A stretch of DNA of 51,831 nt, taken from Thermoplasmatota archaeon. Lineage in GTDB: Archaea; Thermoplasmatota; E2; DHVEG-1. The notes beneath the pieces were generated by a model. It saw only the letters and a program-made list of their open reading frames with translations. It did not search any database and was not told the DNA's origin. The stretch lies in contig JAUWBM010000007.1 of the NCBI GenBank assembly GCA_030601705.1, forward strand, positions 1 through 51,831. The letters are read 5' to 3'. The translations under genes were made by a program, and so were the position numbers. Below, piece after piece: positions 26,701-49,472 of this stretch; the first letter of the stretch is position 1, and each line of letters starts with the position of its first letter.

Positions 26701-26931
26701 TTAATGACTCATTGAACAACCACCTGATTTCTTTCGGACAGGTACTTCTTTTTTGATTAAAGCTTCCATTATCATTCTGGTCTTTTTCGATAGCGGCGCC
26801 TTGCCATTCTCGATCTCGGAGATGCGCACATTAGCGCCACCCTGGGAAAAGCCCAGCTTCACTCCAAATTCCTGTTGTGTCAATCCCATTTGCTTCCGTA
26901 TTGATCTAGTATATTTTGCATCTGATTTCAT
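26701..26931 (-). CDS. XRE-family HTH regulator (copy 1)
   Basis: MKSDAKYTRSIRKQMGLTQQEFGVKLGFSQGGANVRISEIENGKAPLSKKTRMIMEAL. Confidence 0.8.
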   Translation of the reverse strand: MKSDAKYTRSIRKQMGLTQQEFGVKLGFSQGGANVRISEIENGKAPLSKKTRMIMEALIKKEVPVRKKSGGCSMSH

Positions 26932-28201: not shown

Positions 28202-28477
28202 TTAAATATACATTCTAACTAAAATTTTTCCTGCTTCTTTTAAAGACTCTTTCTCAATTCCTACCCATTCATAAATAGCATTACTTAACCAACAAGCCTT
28301 AGCCCAACATTTAGGAAGCTTGTGTAAATTTCCGGTCATCTTTTTATCGTTCTCATCATACCAAATTGCGATTTGTCCACCGCTAATCAATTTACCATTA
28401 TCACAACCTATGATACCATGATCCAAAAAATGAAACTCACAACCTTCTAGATCTTTGATATAATTTTCTTTTGTCAT
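28202..28477 (-). CDS. hypothetical protein, first gene of leftward operon
   Basis: 91 aa; SD AAGGAGGA, directly downstream of the promoter. Confidence 0.55.
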   Translation of the reverse strand: MTKENYIKDLEGCEFHFLDHGIIGCDNGKLISGGQIAIWYDENDKKMTGNLHKLPKCWAKACWLSNAIYEWVGIEKESLKEAGKILVRMYI

Positions 28478-28490
28478 CTTGTCCTCCTTT

Positions 28491-28599
28491 TGTCAAATCT
28501 CACCCTTAATTTACGGTAGCCGTAATTAATTGTCAAGATTTATTTTACGTTCTCCGTAATTATTCTCATTTATTTTGGAAAGTGTGAGCTATGTCACAT
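28491..28599 (-). promoter_or_regulatory. leftward promoter/operator module (copy 1 of 109-bp inverted repeat)
   Basis: TTGACA-17-TAAATT; operators TTACGGCTACCGTAA (between -35 and -10) and TTACGGAGAACGTAA (upstream); CRP-like TGTGA-N6-TCACA at 28583-28598. Confidence 0.75.
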
Positions 28600-28652
28600 C
28601 ATTATTTACTTTGTTTTTCATATAGAGTGTAGTATTTTGTGGCGAGAATGAG

Positions 28653-35709: not shown

Positions 35710-36003
35710 ATGGCAACACTTGATCAATGCAATTATTGTAAATATTATTCAACACCTTTAGAAGAGATAGAAATTATCAAAAAAGGGATTGGCTGCGATT
35801 ATAGAGAAAAAATTCTTATGTGTGATAATTGTCGCAGGAGAAAAAATTTTGTATTTGTTGATCCAAAAGATGGAATTGAGAAATACAATCGAACTTATAG
35901 TAAACATTATTCTACACTATGTCCCAATGATATTACCAATAGAAATGGATTTATAGATAATTGTGATATACAGATAAAAGAGGTTAACAATGAGAATAAA
36001 TGA
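35710..36003 (+). CDS. Cys-rich hypothetical protein
   Basis: CNYCKYYSTP...CDNCRRRKNFVFV. Confidence 0.45.
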   Translation: MATLDQCNYCKYYSTPLEEIEIIKKGIGCDYREKILMCDNCRRRKNFVFVDPKDGIEKYNRTYSKHYSTLCPNDITNRNGFIDNCDIQIKEVNNENK

Positions 36004-38008
36004 AATCACCAAAAAAAGCCTAAAGAATGCGGATAACAACGAGCTGTATTCGCTCCGGTTAAGATCCATACAGCTTTGGGGGAAAAGTTTCAAAGATGAT
36101 GATAGCCAATTAAAATGTCATCAATATCACAATCTCGGTGATCTAAACAAGATGGAGTTTTTAGATAGATATAAGATGCTAATCGAACAGATGAACAAGC
36201 GTGGATTAACCCGCTCGACGCATGATATAGATGTGGCGCTTTTCAAGAAGTCGATGCTGAGGGTAGACGCATCAACATTGGATGATGTAATTATTGTAAA
36301 AGATTATATAAGTATAAGCGGAAGTTTTGTCAAAACCCCCAACGAAGCCAATGATATAGACTTAATCATAAAGGAGAGTGACAACAATCGGGATGAAGAA
36401 ATAGAAAAAAAATTGACCAAACTTATCCAAGGGCAGGTCAAGAAGGATTGCCATTTTGTCTATAATAAAGCTGGGGCACAAAGTGATTATATCCCGCTTT
36501 TCGATTTGATATTGAGATCAAAGGATGAAACAAAGAAAGTAGAAGTCAAAGAAAGCCACAAAAAAATTGAAGCAACGCCAAAATTAAAAAGAATTGACAA
36601 AGCAAAATATAAAAGAACCGAATGCATGGAATGCTCTGCACCGCCAACTGTTGAGGTATTATGGGCTGAGGGGATGGCTCATGCATGGTTTTGCGAAAAG
36701 CATTTCAAGGAATGGGCTACCAAGGGAGACGGAAAAGGCGAAGTAAATTCCGTAAAAGCAATCCAGGATGGCGAGGCAAACATGAAATTTAGTGATAATA
36801 AATCGCCAAATATTGAGGATGAGTATGATTTTCTAAAAATCCATAAACAAACAGATAAAGATATTATACTTATGGAATATGGAAAACTTAAAGAAAAAGG
36901 TCTTTCTGAGAATGAAATAATTGAAGAAATAGCTAAGATACTATTGCCAATAGGTTTCGATATTGAATATTGGAAGAAAAAGATTAGAGAAGTTTTAAAA
37001 ATGGTTGGACAAATTAAAAAAGAAGAAGGCAATATAGATTATAAAGTTGGGGATAGTGGCAAGGCAATACTTCAACTCCATATCATGGGAATAGATGAGG
37101 AGAAAATCGCAGCCTTGAAAAAAGTCTCCTCTGAAGCTGTAAAATCAAAATCAAATCCCACGAAGCTGAAGATGCTTTTAAAGGGCGCAATAGGTGAGCA
37201 GGGATGCCATGTGGATATTCGTTTTGTTCGAAAGGGTGATGACTATTTTGAGGGTGGAGAGATAATGGTTGGCAATCTGACAGGATTGACAAAACTGAAC
37301 GAATTGGAGAGAGAGAAGAAATTGCGTTTTGGTTGGAAAGTGCCACGCAAAGAAGCGCCCACCGCAGAGACCATTCGGGGTCCAGTAGATTGGATGAAAG
37401 TAGGCGATAGGAAAATAGACATCTTTGAGCCTGGTGTGGCAGGAGCGACCACAAATAAATATGGAGCAATGCTTATTCTGGATCGCTTTAATTTTGAGAT
37501 GATCCTGGCTGATAAACATGCAAAAAAAATTAAGGTGTCAGGTGGCAAAATAGTACCTGATGGTATCCTGCTTATGTCATATGTTCCCGTTGGCGAGGGC
37601 GAAAGGGTTTGGATGGTCAGCTGGTTTGAGGAAAAGCTGAAGATGCGATTTCTCAAGATCGATAAGAAGGAATATATAGTTGGTGGAATCGTATATCCCG
37701 CAAATGAAGTGGATACACAGGACGATCAGGCCTCAGGAAGAGAAATCTGGAAGGCGCTCAAAAAGTATATGATAAAGAAAAGAACTATAAAAATCATGCA
37801 TAAAGGCAAATCAAGAAATATTCCTATAATCGAAGTCTATCAGGCTTATGAGGATACGCATAAGGGTGGAAATGACGAGGATCATCTTATCCGAAAGGGC
37901 GATTGGTATATGTCTATATATCTCGGAGATGAGAAGGAAATCTGGGATGAGGTTGAAAGCGGGAAGCTAACGGGTTTCAGTATGGGTGGGTCTGCCCGAA
38001 AATATTAG
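35990..38008 (+). CDS. multidomain protein: pol-beta-type nucleotidyltransferase-like, zinc motif, XkdF-like protease domain
   Basis: GSFVKTPNEANDIDLII (GS-x9-DxD); CMECSAPPTVEVLWAEGMAHAWFCEKHF; C-term DWYMSIYLGDEKEIWDEVESGKLTGFSMGG. Confidence 0.7.
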   Translation: MRINEITKKSLKNADNNELYSLRLRSIQLWGKSFKDDDSQLKCHQYHNLGDLNKMEFLDRYKMLIEQMNKRGLTRSTHDIDVALFKKSMLRVDASTLDDVIIVKDYISISGSFVKTPNEANDIDLIIKESDNNRDEEIEKKLTKLIQGQVKKDCHFVYNKAGAQSDYIPLFDLILRSKDETKKVEVKESHKKIEATPKLKRIDKAKYKRTECMECSAPPTVEVLWAEGMAHAWFCEKHFKEWATKGDGKGEVNSVKAIQDGEANMKFSDNKSPNIEDEYDFLKIHKQTDKDIILMEYGKLKEKGLSENEIIEEIAKILLPIGFDIEYWKKKIREVLKMVGQIKKEEGNIDYKVGDSGKAILQLHIMGIDEEKIAALKKVSSEAVKSKSNPTKLKMLLKGAIGEQGCHVDIRFVRKGDDYFEGGEIMVGNLTGLTKLNELEREKKLRFGWKVPRKEAPTAETIRGPVDWMKVGDRKIDIFEPGVAGATTNKYGAMLILDRFNFEMILADKHAKKIKVSGGKIVPDGILLMSYVPVGEGERVWMVSWFEEKLKMRFLKIDKKEYIVGGIVYPANEVDTQDDQASGREIWKALKKYMIKKRTIKIMHKGKSRNIPIIEVYQAYEDTHKGGNDEDHLIRKGDWYMSIYLGDEKEIWDEVESGKLTGFSMGGSARKY

Positions 38009-38224
38009 TGATTCACTGGGTTTGGTTACGAAAACCGTAAAATACATCTTCTATTATAAAAAGTTATTAAGGCATTATTGAGACAAGTCTTAATATATTG
38101 TATCCATATTATGATATTGATTGATAAATTAAATAATACGGACTTTGTTCCCTAAATTCATGCTAATTTTACCCTATATAATAATATGGGGTTGATTTTT
38201 GCTATGCGCTACGGCGCTCTAAGA

Positions 38225-38255
38225 TGCCTTAAATCGCAACGTAAAGGCACTTTTT
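38225..38255 (+). terminator. putative rho-independent terminator
   Basis: TGCCTT(38225-38230)/AAGGCA(38244-38249) then CTTTTT. Confidence 0.4.
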
Positions 38256-38283
38256 GAGATGTTGTAGAATACAATCCTGTAAT

Positions 38284-38392
38284 ATGTGACGCAGCTCACA
38301 CTTTCCAAAATAAATGAGAATAATTACGGAGAACGTAAAATAAATCTTGACAATTAATTACGGCTACCGTAAATTAAGGGTGAGATTTGACA
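38284..38392 (+). promoter_or_regulatory. cassette promoter/operator module (copy 2 of 109-bp inverted repeat)
   Basis: TTGACA(38347-38352)-17-TAAATT(38370-38375), two TTACG-N5-CGTAA operators, CRP-like TGTGACGCAGCTCACA 38285-38300; 107/109 identity to reverse complement of 28491-28599. Confidence 0.75.
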
Positions 38393-38422
38393 GAAGAAGA
38401 AAAAGAAACAAAGAGGGATGAG

Positions 38423-38962
38423 ATGAAAAACTTAGAAGTCACAACAAAAGCAGGAAAGATCGAACTGGTAATATCGGGTAATAACGAATATCCGAAGGTA
38501 GTTGTTGCCGATTCTACGATATTAGCAGGAATGAATATTAGCGGAAGTAATGTAAAACCATCTATTAATCGCTCTAAACAAAAGGGGGTATACATCAAAA
38601 GTGGGCGAGGGATATTTGTGGAAAATGAATTAGCATATTTTGATCTGAAAAATTCTATAAGCCAATTACCGAATCCACCTGAAAGAATTATTGAAAAAAC
38701 AAAAAAGATTATTAATGCAGATGGTGATATTATTGAGACAAGTGTATGGGATTTAGGTTATTTCACAACAACTTCCGGTACTGTTATATCTGGTGCTGAA
38801 ATGTCACATTTTTTAGATTCAAAAAAAATAGAAAAAATTGAAGAATCGAAAGCAATCAAACTTTTTGAAACTGAAAGAGAAGAAGATTATATTGCAGCAG
38901 AAAAAAGATCAATCAAGAGAATGAAGGATTGGGCTGTTGCAAGTGATGGAAATGATTATTAA
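38423..38962 (+). CDS. hypothetical cassette protein
   Basis: ATG with SD GAGG; MKNLEVTTKAGKIELVISGNNEYPKVVV... Confidence 0.6.
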   Translation: MKNLEVTTKAGKIELVISGNNEYPKVVVADSTILAGMNISGSNVKPSINRSKQKGVYIKSGRGIFVENELAYFDLKNSISQLPNPPERIIEKTKKIINADGDIIETSVWDLGYFTTTSGTVISGAEMSHFLDSKKIEKIEESKAIKLFETEREEDYIAAEKRSIKRMKDWAVASDGNDY

Positions 38963-38978
38963 TAAAAAGAAGAAAATT

Positions 38979-39188
38979 ATGAGTACAAATGCGATCAAGA
39001 TTTCAACCGATGATATGTTGGAAATTCAAGAAGCTATTGAAAGAGATGCACCTATTTCTGAAATTCGTAAACTTCTGAAAAAAGCACGATTATATCATTC
39101 TGGTGAAGAAAGTCTAAGACTACCAGTTGCTGAATTGATGCTACGAATATTGCACAAATATGTAGTATATCCAGAAGAAAAAAATTAG
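38979..39188 (+). CDS. hypothetical small cassette protein
   Basis: MSTNAIKISTDDMLEIQEAIERDAPISEIRKLLKKARLYH; TAG stop begins hairpin A2. Confidence 0.5.
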   Translation: MSTNAIKISTDDMLEIQEAIERDAPISEIRKLLKKARLYHSGEESLRLPVAELMLRILHKYVVYPEEKN

Positions 39189-39229
39189 CCTGCTTGGAGT
39201 TTAAGCGGGGATCGTCTCCCCGCCAGGCT
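39187..39229 (+). repeat. TAG-anchored hairpin element, copy A2
   Basis: AGCCTG(39187-39192)/CAGGCT(39224-39229), inner GCGGGG(39205-39210)/CCCCGC(39218-39223). Confidence 0.6.
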
Positions 39230-39251
39230 CAAATTGAAAATGGAGGATAGA

Positions 39252-39455
39252 ATGAAATCAGACGCGAAATATACTAAGTCAATGCGCGAGCGCCTCGGTT
39301 TAAACCAGCAGGAATTCGGCATGAGGTTGGGATTCTCCGAAGCTGGAGCGGCGGTGCGGATCTCCGAGATCGAAAACGGCAAGGCATCGCTGTCGAAAAA
39401 GACTCGGATGATCTTGGAGATGATAGAAAAATACAAGGGAAAAGAAAATGAATAA
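39252..39455 (+). CDS. XRE-family HTH regulator (copy 2)
   Basis: MKSDAKYTKSMRERLGLNQQEFGMRLGFSEAGAAVRISEIENGKASLSKKTRMILEMI; paralogue of 26701..26931. Confidence 0.8.
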   Translation: MKSDAKYTKSMRERLGLNQQEFGMRLGFSEAGAAVRISEIENGKASLSKKTRMILEMIEKYKGKENE

Positions 39456-39864
39456 AATAATTGGGGAATTAGGCTATGCAAGCAGGGACATAAAAAAAGG
39501 CGAAAAAATTAAAATCGTTTTTGATGATAAACAAATATCTTGTGACTCCATTTATCTTGAGCCCAAGGGATTAGATTTCATTGACAAGCTTATTGTTGGC
39601 AGTAAGTCTGAAACAATTAAAACGAAATGGAATATACCTCTTGAATTATTAGACAAAGAAAAATCAAAAAAATTGTTTATAAAACAATATAAATCTCGAT
39701 TCATTTATAATAAAAAAGAATTCAAAGAGAAATTATCAAAAATAAGATACTGGCAATGCTCTCAATGCAAAGTATATCATTGGTATCAATATGAAGAATC
39801 TTATATAGATTATTCAAGTCCATATTGTACATATTGCGCACCAGAACCGCCTAAATTTGAATAA
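39448..39864 (+). CDS. hypothetical protein with C-terminal Cys pairs
   Basis: 138 aa; CSQCKVYHWYQYEESYIDYSSPYCTYCAPEPP. Confidence 0.5.
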   Translation: MNKIIGELGYASRDIKKGEKIKIVFDDKQISCDSIYLEPKGLDFIDKLIVGSKSETIKTKWNIPLELLDKEKSKKLFIKQYKSRFIYNKKEFKEKLSKIRYWQCSQCKVYHWYQYEESYIDYSSPYCTYCAPEPPKFE

Positions 39865-39915
39865 TTAAAGTGTTTATAATATATCAACAGGTGGAAAATA
39901 TAAGGAGAATTGATT

Positions 39916-40113
39916 ATGTTTATTAGAATTTCTAAAGGATTATTTGGCTTTTTATTTTGTTTAATGGGTATATTTTTGGCAGTTGGTTCAATATATCTTC
40001 AGATAATTTCAAATTATAAACCAGAAACTATGACATTAATTCTTTCTGCTGTGGCTATGGGTATTGGCTGGATAATTTTTATATCTGCTATAAAAGGCGA
40101 AGAGATATTTTGA
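39916..40113 (+). CDS. small two-TM protein
   Basis: about 65 aa with two hydrophobic segments; SD AAGGAG. Confidence 0.5.
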   Translation: MFIRISKGLFGFLFCLMGIFLAVGSIYLQIISNYKPETMTLILSAVAMGIGWIIFISAIKGEEIF

Positions 40114-40150
40114 TACCAACCTAAAATATTAGCAATCAGATTTCTTCCTT

Positions 40151-40180
40151 AAAGCCTTGTATTTAGTGGGGCTTTTTTGT
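40151..40180 (+). terminator. putative rho-independent terminator at cassette end
   Basis: AAAGCC(40151-40156)/GGCTTT(40170-40175) followed by a T run. Confidence 0.55.
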
Positions 40181-40200
40181 TTTCTTTTAAAAAAAAGCTA

Positions 40201-40229
40201 TTGACTTTTATAATTATATCAATTATTTT
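40201..40229 (+). promoter_or_regulatory. putative promoter of scaffold/capsid operon
   Basis: TTGACT-17 nt-TATTTT, same -35, spacing and -10 as 9359-9387. Confidence 0.5.
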
Positions 40230-40254
40230 CCTTATGCGAGTGATGTTTTGACAG

Positions 40255-40380
40255 TTTAAGATCAAAGAGCAGTTCTTCTAAGCCGATTCACAGGATTCAT
40301 TTTGAATGCCTGAAGGTTAGCGGAAGCCAGCCAAGATGCCTAAAGCCGACTCAGAAATCATGAGGGATTTAGGAATTTTT
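40255..40380 (+). promoter_or_regulatory. structured 5' leader of scaffold/capsid operon
   Basis: Hairpins CAGGATTC-ATTTT-GAATGCCTG, GGTTAGC-GGAA-GCCAGCC, CCTAAA...CTCA-GAAATCA-TGAG...TTTAGG in an ORF-free leader. Confidence 0.45.
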
Positions 40381-40400
40381 ATTTTAGGGGAACTTGCTAA

Positions 40401-41165
40401 ATGTCCGACAAACTTATAGACATTAATATTGACGAAATAAGTCTTGTTGATTTCGCAGCAAACCGCAAGAAATTCCTAATAATTAAAAATATGAATACGC
40501 GAACGCCATTTGCTATGCAAGATGGTAGTGGTATTATTGGTGAAAGGAACAAGGTAATGAAAGAATTAAGGAAATTATTTAAGGACTATTTCGGCGATGA
40601 ATTCGAGAAGGAAGAGTTTGAGAAATTTGAGAAGGCGGAACTGAAGTCTGATATTTTGAATGCGATAAAAGGCGCATTGAAACTTGTGGTCAAATACAAG
40701 GGCGATTTCCCCGATGACCTCAAAAAGGCTGTAGGAGTCCTTGCTAAATACGCTAGCTATGGATATGGAACTACTGAGAAAAGAGGCGATGATTTTGAAA
40801 AGGCTCTTAAGGATGCTCTCGAGAAATCCGGGGCGAAACTATCCAAATCAACGATTGAACAGATAACCAAAACAATAGAAATTCTGAGCAAACTGATTGG
40901 ACTGGAGATAAAAAAGAAAACCGATGTTGAACTGATCCAAGAACAGATTGATTCGCTAAAGAAATCAATTGAGGATGCAGTGAAGAAAAAAGATGAAGAT
41001 GAAGTGGGAACAGAAACGGAGAAGCTGACTGAGACAATTGATGCCTTAAAGAAAAGACTGGAAACCGTTGAGAAAAGTAAGGGCGTAAAGAAATCGTTTG
41101 ATGAAGATGGTAAGGAAATCATAGATAAAAACGATTCCCAATGGCCCAGCTTCGATTTAGAATAG
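40401..41165 (+). CDS. scaffold-like protein beginning with an XkdF C-terminal-type motif
   Basis: N-term DINIDEISLVDFAANRKKFLIIK; long charged helical C-term; immediately upstream of capsid gene. Confidence 0.65.
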   Translation: MSDKLIDINIDEISLVDFAANRKKFLIIKNMNTRTPFAMQDGSGIIGERNKVMKELRKLFKDYFGDEFEKEEFEKFEKAELKSDILNAIKGALKLVVKYKGDFPDDLKKAVGVLAKYASYGYGTTEKRGDDFEKALKDALEKSGAKLSKSTIEQITKTIEILSKLIGLEIKKKTDVELIQEQIDSLKKSIEDAVKKKDEDEVGTETEKLTETIDALKKRLETVEKSKGVKKSFDEDGKEIIDKNDSQWPSFDLE

Positions 41166-41177
41166 AAAGGAAATAAC

Positions 41178-42242
41178 ATGATAACGAATAAAGAACTTTT
41201 GAATAAACAAAAGTTTCTGAAGGCGATGAAGGCACTCCCGGATATAGATCTTCTCCCGGAAGAAGCTGACAGGTTCATTGACTATGTAATAGATGAGTCG
41301 GTGTGGAAGGACAATGCAAGAATAGTCAAGATGGCAAAGAACGAGAAAAACATCAGATACTTGGGCTTTGGCACAGGTAGATTCTTGAAACCGGCCGACC
41401 AGTTTAGTGTGGCAGACTACAAAAAAGAATTCTATTCCGGAAAATTGACGCTTACAAGCAAGCAAGTGCGTGGATGCGTGGAGATATTCGATGATGATCT
41501 TGAGGATAACATTGAGGGACAGAAATTCGCTGATCACCTTATGAGAATAATCGCAAAGAAAGTAGCAAATGAGCTTGATGAGGCATATTATGTCTCGAAT
41601 TCGGGCTTTGCGGCTACTGATATAAGATCACTGTGGGAAGGATTTCGTTATATATTATTGCATTATTCACCTGCGGCAACCGATACCGCAGATCAATATC
41701 CACTTGCGGCCAATAAACTAAATGCGAATAGTGCGTCAGATTTTGATCTTGTGGGTAAAATAGTGGAACAGAATTCGTCCGAACCGTACAACTGGGAATT
41801 CAAGTTTGCCAAAATGTTGTCGACTCTGCCAAGTAAATACAAAATCGGTGGGCTTGCAAACTTGCGTTTTTTCAGCAATGATATAATTATAAATGATTAT
41901 ATCGAAGCTCTTTCAGCGAGATCAACCATTTTGGGTGATAATGCGATTTTGGGCAAAGGCCCAATGCAATATGGTAAAGTACCTATCATACCAGTTTCTC
42001 TTATGCCTACCGATTATGCTGCTGGAGCAACAGGATTAGAGGCATTTGGTTCAAGCGATTATACTGATGTGATACTAACTCACAGGGATAATTTTGTAAT
42101 AGGATTGCAACGAGAATTGAAATTGGAATCACAGAGAGTACCTGAGGATGCGGCACAACGTGTCTTTTACAGTATGCGTGTGGACTTTAAGATTGAGAAT
42201 CCAGAAGCAGCAGTGATTATGTACAATGTGACACATTCTTAA
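41178..42242 (+). CDS. major capsid protein
   Basis: 354 aa after scaffold-like gene; C-term QRVFYSMRVDFKIENPEAAVIMYNV typical of phage capsid proteins. Confidence 0.8.
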   Translation: MITNKELLNKQKFLKAMKALPDIDLLPEEADRFIDYVIDESVWKDNARIVKMAKNEKNIRYLGFGTGRFLKPADQFSVADYKKEFYSGKLTLTSKQVRGCVEIFDDDLEDNIEGQKFADHLMRIIAKKVANELDEAYYVSNSGFAATDIRSLWEGFRYILLHYSPAATDTADQYPLAANKLNANSASDFDLVGKIVEQNSSEPYNWEFKFAKMLSTLPSKYKIGGLANLRFFSNDIIINDYIEALSARSTILGDNAILGKGPMQYGKVPIIPVSLMPTDYAAGATGLEAFGSSDYTDVILTHRDNFVIGLQRELKLESQRVPEDAAQRVFYSMRVDFKIENPEAAVIMYNVTHS

Positions 42243-49079: not shown

Positions 49080-49472
49080 ATGTCGATAATATTCTCACAT
49101 CCCTCTGCGACTGATGTTACATTATCAAAAAGCTCAAAATTCCCATATAACCAGACAGGTAAAGTTATACCAAATCAACTTGTTGGAATGGCTATCGGTG
49201 GCGCTGTCAAAGTGGCTACTCTCGGCGATGCTGAAAGATTCTGGACTGTGGATGTGGAATATGAGACTGAAACCATCAGAAACGCCCTTCTAGCATTCTT
49301 TGCCGATGCAGATGTCAATTATATGGCGAACACATTCACGTTTTATCCCGATGATGGCTCATCATATACAGCTAGATTGTGGTCTGCTGATGGGCTTGAT
49401 TTCCCTGCCCTAGTTGATAATGGTGCAAAATTCTATTCAATTTTAATAGTAGTAAGGAAAGAGATAACGTAA
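49080..49472 (+). CDS. distal tail / minor tail protein
   Basis: 130 aa, directly after tape measure. Confidence 0.55.
   Translation: MSIIFSHPSATDVTLSKSSKFPYNQTGKVIPNQLVGMAIGGAVKVATLGDAERFWTVDVEYETETIRNALLAFFADADVNYMANTFTFYPDDGSSYTARLWSADGLDFPALVDNGAKFYSILIVVRKEIT

Follow-up and report, generated by a model that had tools for sequence, protein, structure and literature searches.

Sequence comparison indicates that the prohead protease of a phage on an archaeal contig (Thermoplasmatota; JAUWBM010000007.1, analysed as one stretch of 51,831 nucleotides, hereafter the window) is divided between two head genes. The first encodes the XkdF-type core, and the second, the scaffold, opens with a segment that appears to be the beta-strand following the catalytic serine in HK97 gp4, psiM2 ORF12 and gp48 of the Streptomyces phage Enygma (Enygma gp48). 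The explanation that we consider probable joins four elements: a clade with a two-gene XkdF protease, a split that was in place before the cassette now lying between the genes, moron-like cargo in the gap, and a core that would be completed by the scaffold strand. What keeps prohead proteases quiet while the shell is still being built is a question that comes up again and again in work on phage and herpesvirus assembly. A break between the serine and the next strand, which then belongs to the scaffold, hints at a simple switch gated by assembly. Such a switch would have a clear use, as T4 gp21 is known not to become active before the prohead has been completed (PMC9958956).

The ends of the two head genes are as the first-pass annotation had described them: the 672-aa ORF at 35990-38008 terminates in GKLTGFSMGGSARKY*, and the 254-aa ORF at 40401-41165 starts with MSDKLIDINIDEISLVDFAANRKKFLIIK. 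Residues 554-672 of the former (about 37649-38005) match PF14550 (E=1.1e-15) with 58.2 bits against a curated cut-off of 24. One XkdF protease-scaffold profile, PHROG 3017 (head maturation protease, 402 positions), spans the two genes: its positions 41-153 align to the protease ORF and 166-395 to the scaffold ORF. The protease strand takes up the first ~28-29 residues of the scaffold (40401-40487). The single-chain order of the Firmicutes XkdF proteins (strand, core, scaffold) is not found in the window, which has two genes with the strand on the second. The S78 family (PF04586) matches neither the window core nor a chimera of core and strand, and a link to S78 by way of this chimera was dropped for that reason. 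The tie of the window to S78 runs through Enygma gp48, which bridges the two families as it matches both PF04586 (over the serine and the strand) and PF14550. The coordinates of all features are collected in Table 1.

Table 1. Features of the window around the protease-scaffold gap and of the second operon
Feature	Position	Strand	Remarks
Second phage operon	26701..28604	-	Carries a paralogous XRE gene and the 128-bp promoter/operator block of the cassette
Protease gene	35990..38008	+	672 aa; C-terminal XkdF-type core after a long N-terminal region
Operator-like palindrome TTACGNNNNCCGTAA, first copy	38026..38040	+	Whole-assembly pattern search
Terminator-like hairpin past the protease gene (first-pass annotation)	38225..38255	+	Weak; visible in the sequence, unlisted by the scan
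Cassette promoter region	38280..38406	+	95% identical inverted copy at 28477-28604
CRP-like box	38285-38300		Within the cassette promoter region
Operators	38324-38338 and 38358-38372		Within the cassette promoter region
-35/-10	38347-38375		Within the 128-bp block of the cassette promoter region
Cassette ORF, 191 aa, TTG start as listed	38387..38962	+	No relatives found
Cassette ORF, 83 aa	38937..39188	+	No family
Hairpin-like block	39185..39245	+	75% identical to 27935-27870; common to the second operon
XRE-type HTH gene, 67 aa from ATG	39252..39455	+	73% aa identity to the gene at 26752-26931 (minus)
Cassette ORF, 138 aa, C-terminal Cys pairs	39448..39864	+	No firm family
Cassette ORF, 67 aa, hydrophobic	39910..40113	+	No firm family
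Terminator-like hairpin closing the cassette	40151..40175	+	Scan
Promoter-like site before the scaffold	40201..40229	+	9/12 match, not above chance
Possible degenerate leader RNA copy	40298..40385	+	Highest-scoring place in the 2.4-kb gap, at 13.1 bits (E=0.14; models R1, R2)
Scaffold gene	40401..41165	+	254 aa; PHROG 3017 positions 166-395 and strand profile
Major capsid protein gene	41178..42242	+	PHROG 1623 E=1.2e-49; query for finding relatives

Two further observations concern the ends of the protease gene and of the contig. The N-terminal extension of the protease (35990-37640) has a weak nucleotidyltransferase-like match (DUF6932 and DNA_pol_B_palm, both below cut-off), and one related IMG/VR locus (L005; the loci are numbered with an L) has, read by eye, a methyltransferase-like stretch in its place. 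The ORF that starts at 49472 closes two residues past the joined contig ends (1 and 51831). This closure would suit a circular phage genome, though weakly, as the ends show no terminal repeat.

The place of the strand differs among relatives that are better known. In HK97 gp4 the glutamate of LREISVCTFPANEQAGIAAMK lies 27 residues past Ser114, and psiM2 ORF12 and Enygma gp48 have a similar strand after the serine, continuing into a scaffold-like tail on one chain. Firmicutes phages have a fused XkdF (>500 matching IMG/VR stretches) with RELKNAKITHVSYVDKAANQKKFF at the N-terminus, ahead of the core. The first-pass annotation had taken the scaffold start for the segment that normally comes after GFSMGG in XkdF-like proteins; this is right for HK97, psiM2 and Enygma, and wrong for the Firmicutes proteins. 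A strand profile built from 52 non-redundant split loci matches the N-termini of fused XkdF proteins (about 1e-9 to 1e-5), residues 144-183 of Enygma gp48, after the serine (0.004), and the second gene of a Vibrio phage near its N-terminus (0.014). Weak matches in HK97, psiM2 and PhiCh1 are all positioned after the serine; singly they are not significant, and the weight that we would give them comes from the repeated position. The sequences thus point to one fold in three arrangements: core then strand, strand then core, and core and strand on two genes. The two-gene form may plausibly be a fission intermediate of a circular permutation. Sequenced isolates are known for the split form (VHS1 and vB_VcaS_HC) and for the single-chain form (Enygma and psiM2). 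One review calls the XkdF peptidases unrelated to the S77 prohead peptidase (PMC7824862); our results argue, to the contrary, that they may share its fold. Some XkdF-type proteases and strand-bearing scaffolds carry labels that look like misannotations, DNA methyltransferase or K+-dependent Na+/Ca+ exchanger (PHROG 1530; records H1, H4 and H8; R21Y ORF57, H46).

Mean pairwise identity is 57% for the strand (a value inflated by the choice of loci partly by motif), 51% for the core, 57% for the capsid protein and 35% for the remaining scaffold. One strand position, left free when the set was chosen, is glutamate in 34/34 distinct split strands and histidine in 20/20 fused XkdF strands. It is threonine in psiM2 and tyrosine in the Vibrio phage, and for these two residues the glutamate was rejected as a universal third catalytic residue. 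That a third catalytic residue can lie about 25 positions past the serine is known from the giant-phage protease SPN3US gp245, whose triad is H77, S153 and D178 (PMC5694885). By analogy, this spacing would correspond to about the place of the strand in the single-chain forms.

Structure prediction was applied to a natural read-through of locus L074, where one in-frame stop separates the two ORFs. The core is well predicted, and the strand (residues 137-146) has a pLDDT near 60. The best PDB matches of this model are three T4 gp21 chains over 162-164 columns, with a probability of 0.99-1.00, yet an E-value of 0.002-0.005 and a TM-score of 0.43; among viral models psiM2 ORF12 comes first (O80202, the psiM2 structural protein, taken as ORF12). 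Strand-only rows were left out of the AF2 alignment, since MAFFT placed the strands against the core. A model of an XkdF protein in the strand-core order, of mediocre quality, gave no useful match against the PDB, and T4 gp21 is not among the matches listed; this absence is what would be expected when a permuted fold is compared sequentially.

We propose that the core alone would be incomplete, and that the scaffold strand would dock into its sheet, where it perhaps supplies the third catalytic residue. The enzyme would then be competent only where scaffold has assembled, inside the prohead. The gene split, with the leader RNA described below where it is present, would uncouple the amounts of scaffold and capsid protein from that of the protease. 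The fullest form of this proposal is more tentative, and we put it at a little short of an even chance: an active site completed in trans by the scaffold strand, assembly as the switch for proteolysis, the two-gene form as a fission intermediate between the S78 and XkdF orders (a circular permutation), and a new structured RNA that sets, in some members of the clade, how much scaffold and capsid protein is made. Its strongest competitor, which we judge unlikely though worth serious weight, holds that the strand is no longer part of the protease and persists as a vestige or as a docking tag for protease, portal or capsid, the core being active alone. The core by itself is indeed a complete PF14550 match, and Pfam delimits the XkdF family without the strand. 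A vestige or tag fits less well with a strand as strongly conserved as the core and with a glutamate invariant among the 34 distinct split strands, while the adjoining scaffold varies, and the S78 family takes in the strand.

The leader RNA stands ahead of the scaffold gene in part of the clade. The gaps of loci L002, L004, L025 and L027 contain two hairpins, a small one and a long, terminator-like one that ends about 25-40 nt before the scaffold start, and in L002, L004 and L027 a promoter-like site lies upstream of the hairpins. A first covariance model built from these four loci found further sense matches ahead of the scaffold in other loci. In 13 aligned leaders, 93.8% of the cells are paired and 25/29 pairs are changed on both sides; neither any of 500 shuffles nor slid versions come near this covariation, in an alignment that was fitted to the tested structure, which favours the score. 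A second model gave a sense match with E<0.05 in 17/51 searched sources (12 of the 17 had contributed to the model), with two copies in 3. The leader is not present in all relatives, and at 19 loci where the genes abut there is no room for it. In the window, its own putative copy scores too weakly to be called a member, and a first copy at 38006-38400 found no support. The first-pass annotation had the cassette supplying transcription for the downstream gene; the promoter-like site at 40201, itself a weak match, would belong by comparison with relatives to the scaffold leader region and not to the cassette. The copies stand in tandem before the scaffold in L020 (4473-4676), L023 (4852-5070) and L024 (1253-1446). 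The near-identical loci L021 and L022 differ upstream of the scaffold by ~110 nt, most of the leader region.

This RNA could also be read as a free-standing small RNA of the relatives, with a role for example in packaging or regulation, rather than as an attenuated leader of the scaffold message. We regard this as improbable, at perhaps one chance among several. Its own promoter-like site, the terminator with a U-run ahead of the scaffold start, the second covarying hairpin besides the terminator and the tandem copies in three loci all speak for it; its position is, against this, always directly before the scaffold gene, and it is missing where the genes abut, so it would not be essential to packaging in general.

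The wider question is whether the division of the protease is a property of the clade or a consequence of the cassette. Relatives were recruited via scaffold and capsid protein searches. Protease core and scaffold are separate genes at all ~45 IMG/VR loci that show both parts, a tally counted from listings with near-identical loci included; none is fused. When the second gene was picked without regard to motif, no core was found within the ORF directly before the capsid gene, and most complete ORFs in that place start with the strand. The distance from the protease stop to the strand is tens of nucleotides at 19 loci, 200-300 at 12 and more at about 10. The 19 close pairs hold no cargo. The cassette is absent from L002, L004 and L005 too, where the gap measures about 180, 213 and 265 bp, respectively, and contains no called gene. 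In the cargo-free relatives, too, each gene has proper stop and start codons. Cultivated phages of the Vibrio harveyi group (VHS1 group) have the two-gene form as well; in vB_VcaS_HC the XkdF core protein has 203 aa, and the next gene has RSLKNAEASYISVVDRGANRLPIRMLK close to its start. A search of genome contigs returned no relative of the scaffold and two distant ones of the capsid protein, which has no match in 99 related host genomes.

The idea that splicing, ribosomal bypass or read-through of the stop rejoins the two pieces is very hard to sustain. In its favour, a single in-frame stop is all that precedes the open second frame in L074, L075 and L082. Against it, each gene has its own start, the frames differ in other loci, no intron family matches in Rfam, and the parts in the window are 2.4 kb apart with ORFs of their own in between. 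The view of the first-pass annotation that the cassette was inserted within an intact XkdF-type gene of the phage lineage and split it could appeal to the one profile that matches both ends and to the single-chain forms known elsewhere, but it is refuted within the sampled clade, where cargo-free relatives are already split, often by mere nucleotides, and we give it next to no credence. What holds of that annotation is that two parts of one protease-scaffold architecture, for which single-chain forms exist (psiM2 ORF12 and Enygma gp48), are carried by separate genes, and that a moron-like cassette lies in the space between these. Because relatives without cargo carry the same two separate genes, the comparison indicates that the split in the clade is older than the cassette and that cargo entered an existing intergenic gap later.

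The gap appears to be a recurrent insertion site. In an independent pair of loci, L020 has between the protease stop and the leader an insert of ~1.68 kb (1.7 kb) relative to L023, with flanks that are 89% and 83% identical; this insert differs from the window cassette and occupies the same position. HNH-type ORFs are present in the gaps of L076 and L036, and two small ORFs in that of L037 (read by eye). The first codons of the HNH-type ORF of L036 (989-1699) copy the scaffold start, and the scaffold restarts downstream, as if a free-standing homing endonuclease had entered at that point.

In the window the gap of ~2.4 kb consists of a ~2.2-kb cassette with five ORFs, then ~200 bp to the scaffold start. 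The cassette is, as in a moron, an extra unit between two phage genes that is missing in relatives (L002, L004 and L005). An XRE regulator had been predicted among the accessory genes, and one of the five ORFs does encode an XRE-type HTH protein (TIGR03070, E 6.6e-7, with 29 bits below the curated cut-off of 71.65), whose relatives are at most 54% identical. As the neighboring ORFs show no toxin family and the antitoxin match is below its curated cut-off, a type II toxin-antitoxin module was not found. Beyond the weak HTH, the cargo ORFs have no family in Pfam, PHROGs, PADLOC or NCBIfam, and no viral relative of the 191-aa ORF was found. Rfam scans of the window, with gathering thresholds and by E-value, returned no intron or other relevant RNA in the gap, and both were rejected as candidates.

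The signals predicted for the cassette fared unevenly. Of two terminators, the one at 40151-40175 is among the 3 terminator-like sites of the scan (1.1 expected), and the hairpin at 38225-38255 is visible, weak and unlisted by a scan with a loop limit of 8 nt. The promoter at 38347-38375 is backed by the conserved 128-bp block with its 95% identical paralogous copy; that at 40201-40229 is at chance level, in a scan that found 9 promoter-like sites against 11.1 expected. In the 2.84-Mb assembly the TTACGNNNNCCGTAA palindrome occurs only in the window, at the cassette and at the second operon. A TGTGA-N6-TCACA box, with differing central bases, is present at both promoters and at no other place in the window. 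The simplest reading of these shared elements is that the XRE proteins regulate both the cassette and the second operon. The cassette would be an accessory unit under repressor control, with an expression that does not depend on the head genes.

Compared with known systems, the head-gene arrangement looks like a variant form of a known kind of protease, and the cassette like an ordinary accessory insertion of mostly orphan genes. With the fused XkdF proteins (Peptidase_S78_2, PF14550) of Bacillus, Lactococcus and Enterococcus phages the window shares a homologous core with histidine and GYSMAG-type serine, the strand and a coiled-coil scaffold; they have these on one chain as strand, core and scaffold, whereas the window has two genes, core and then strand-scaffold. 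The S78 relatives (PF04586; HK97 gp4, psiM2 ORF12 and Enygma gp48) share the order of core then strand, with the strand past the serine, but on a single chain, while in the window the chain breaks between serine and strand and the strand lies on the scaffold. Closest in layout are VHS1-type Vibrio harveyi phages, in which an XkdF core gene precedes a strand-first gene (genes 046 and 045 of vB_VcaS_HC); unlike the window, vB_VcaS_HC has no gap for cargo or leader (2 bp between the genes), tyrosine for glutamate, a longer core tail and a distant sequence. The cassette, as predicted from its sequence, resembles phage morons in having its own promoter, ORFs and a terminator-like hairpin between two head genes, and it departs from them in that its promoter/operator block, which includes a repressor palindrome and a CRP-like box, and its XRE gene are paralogous to those of the second operon. 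The leader of the relatives resembles attenuators and leader RNAs with intrinsic terminators in its succession of promoter-like site, hairpin, terminator-like hairpin and gene; the window, for its part, has no Rfam match.
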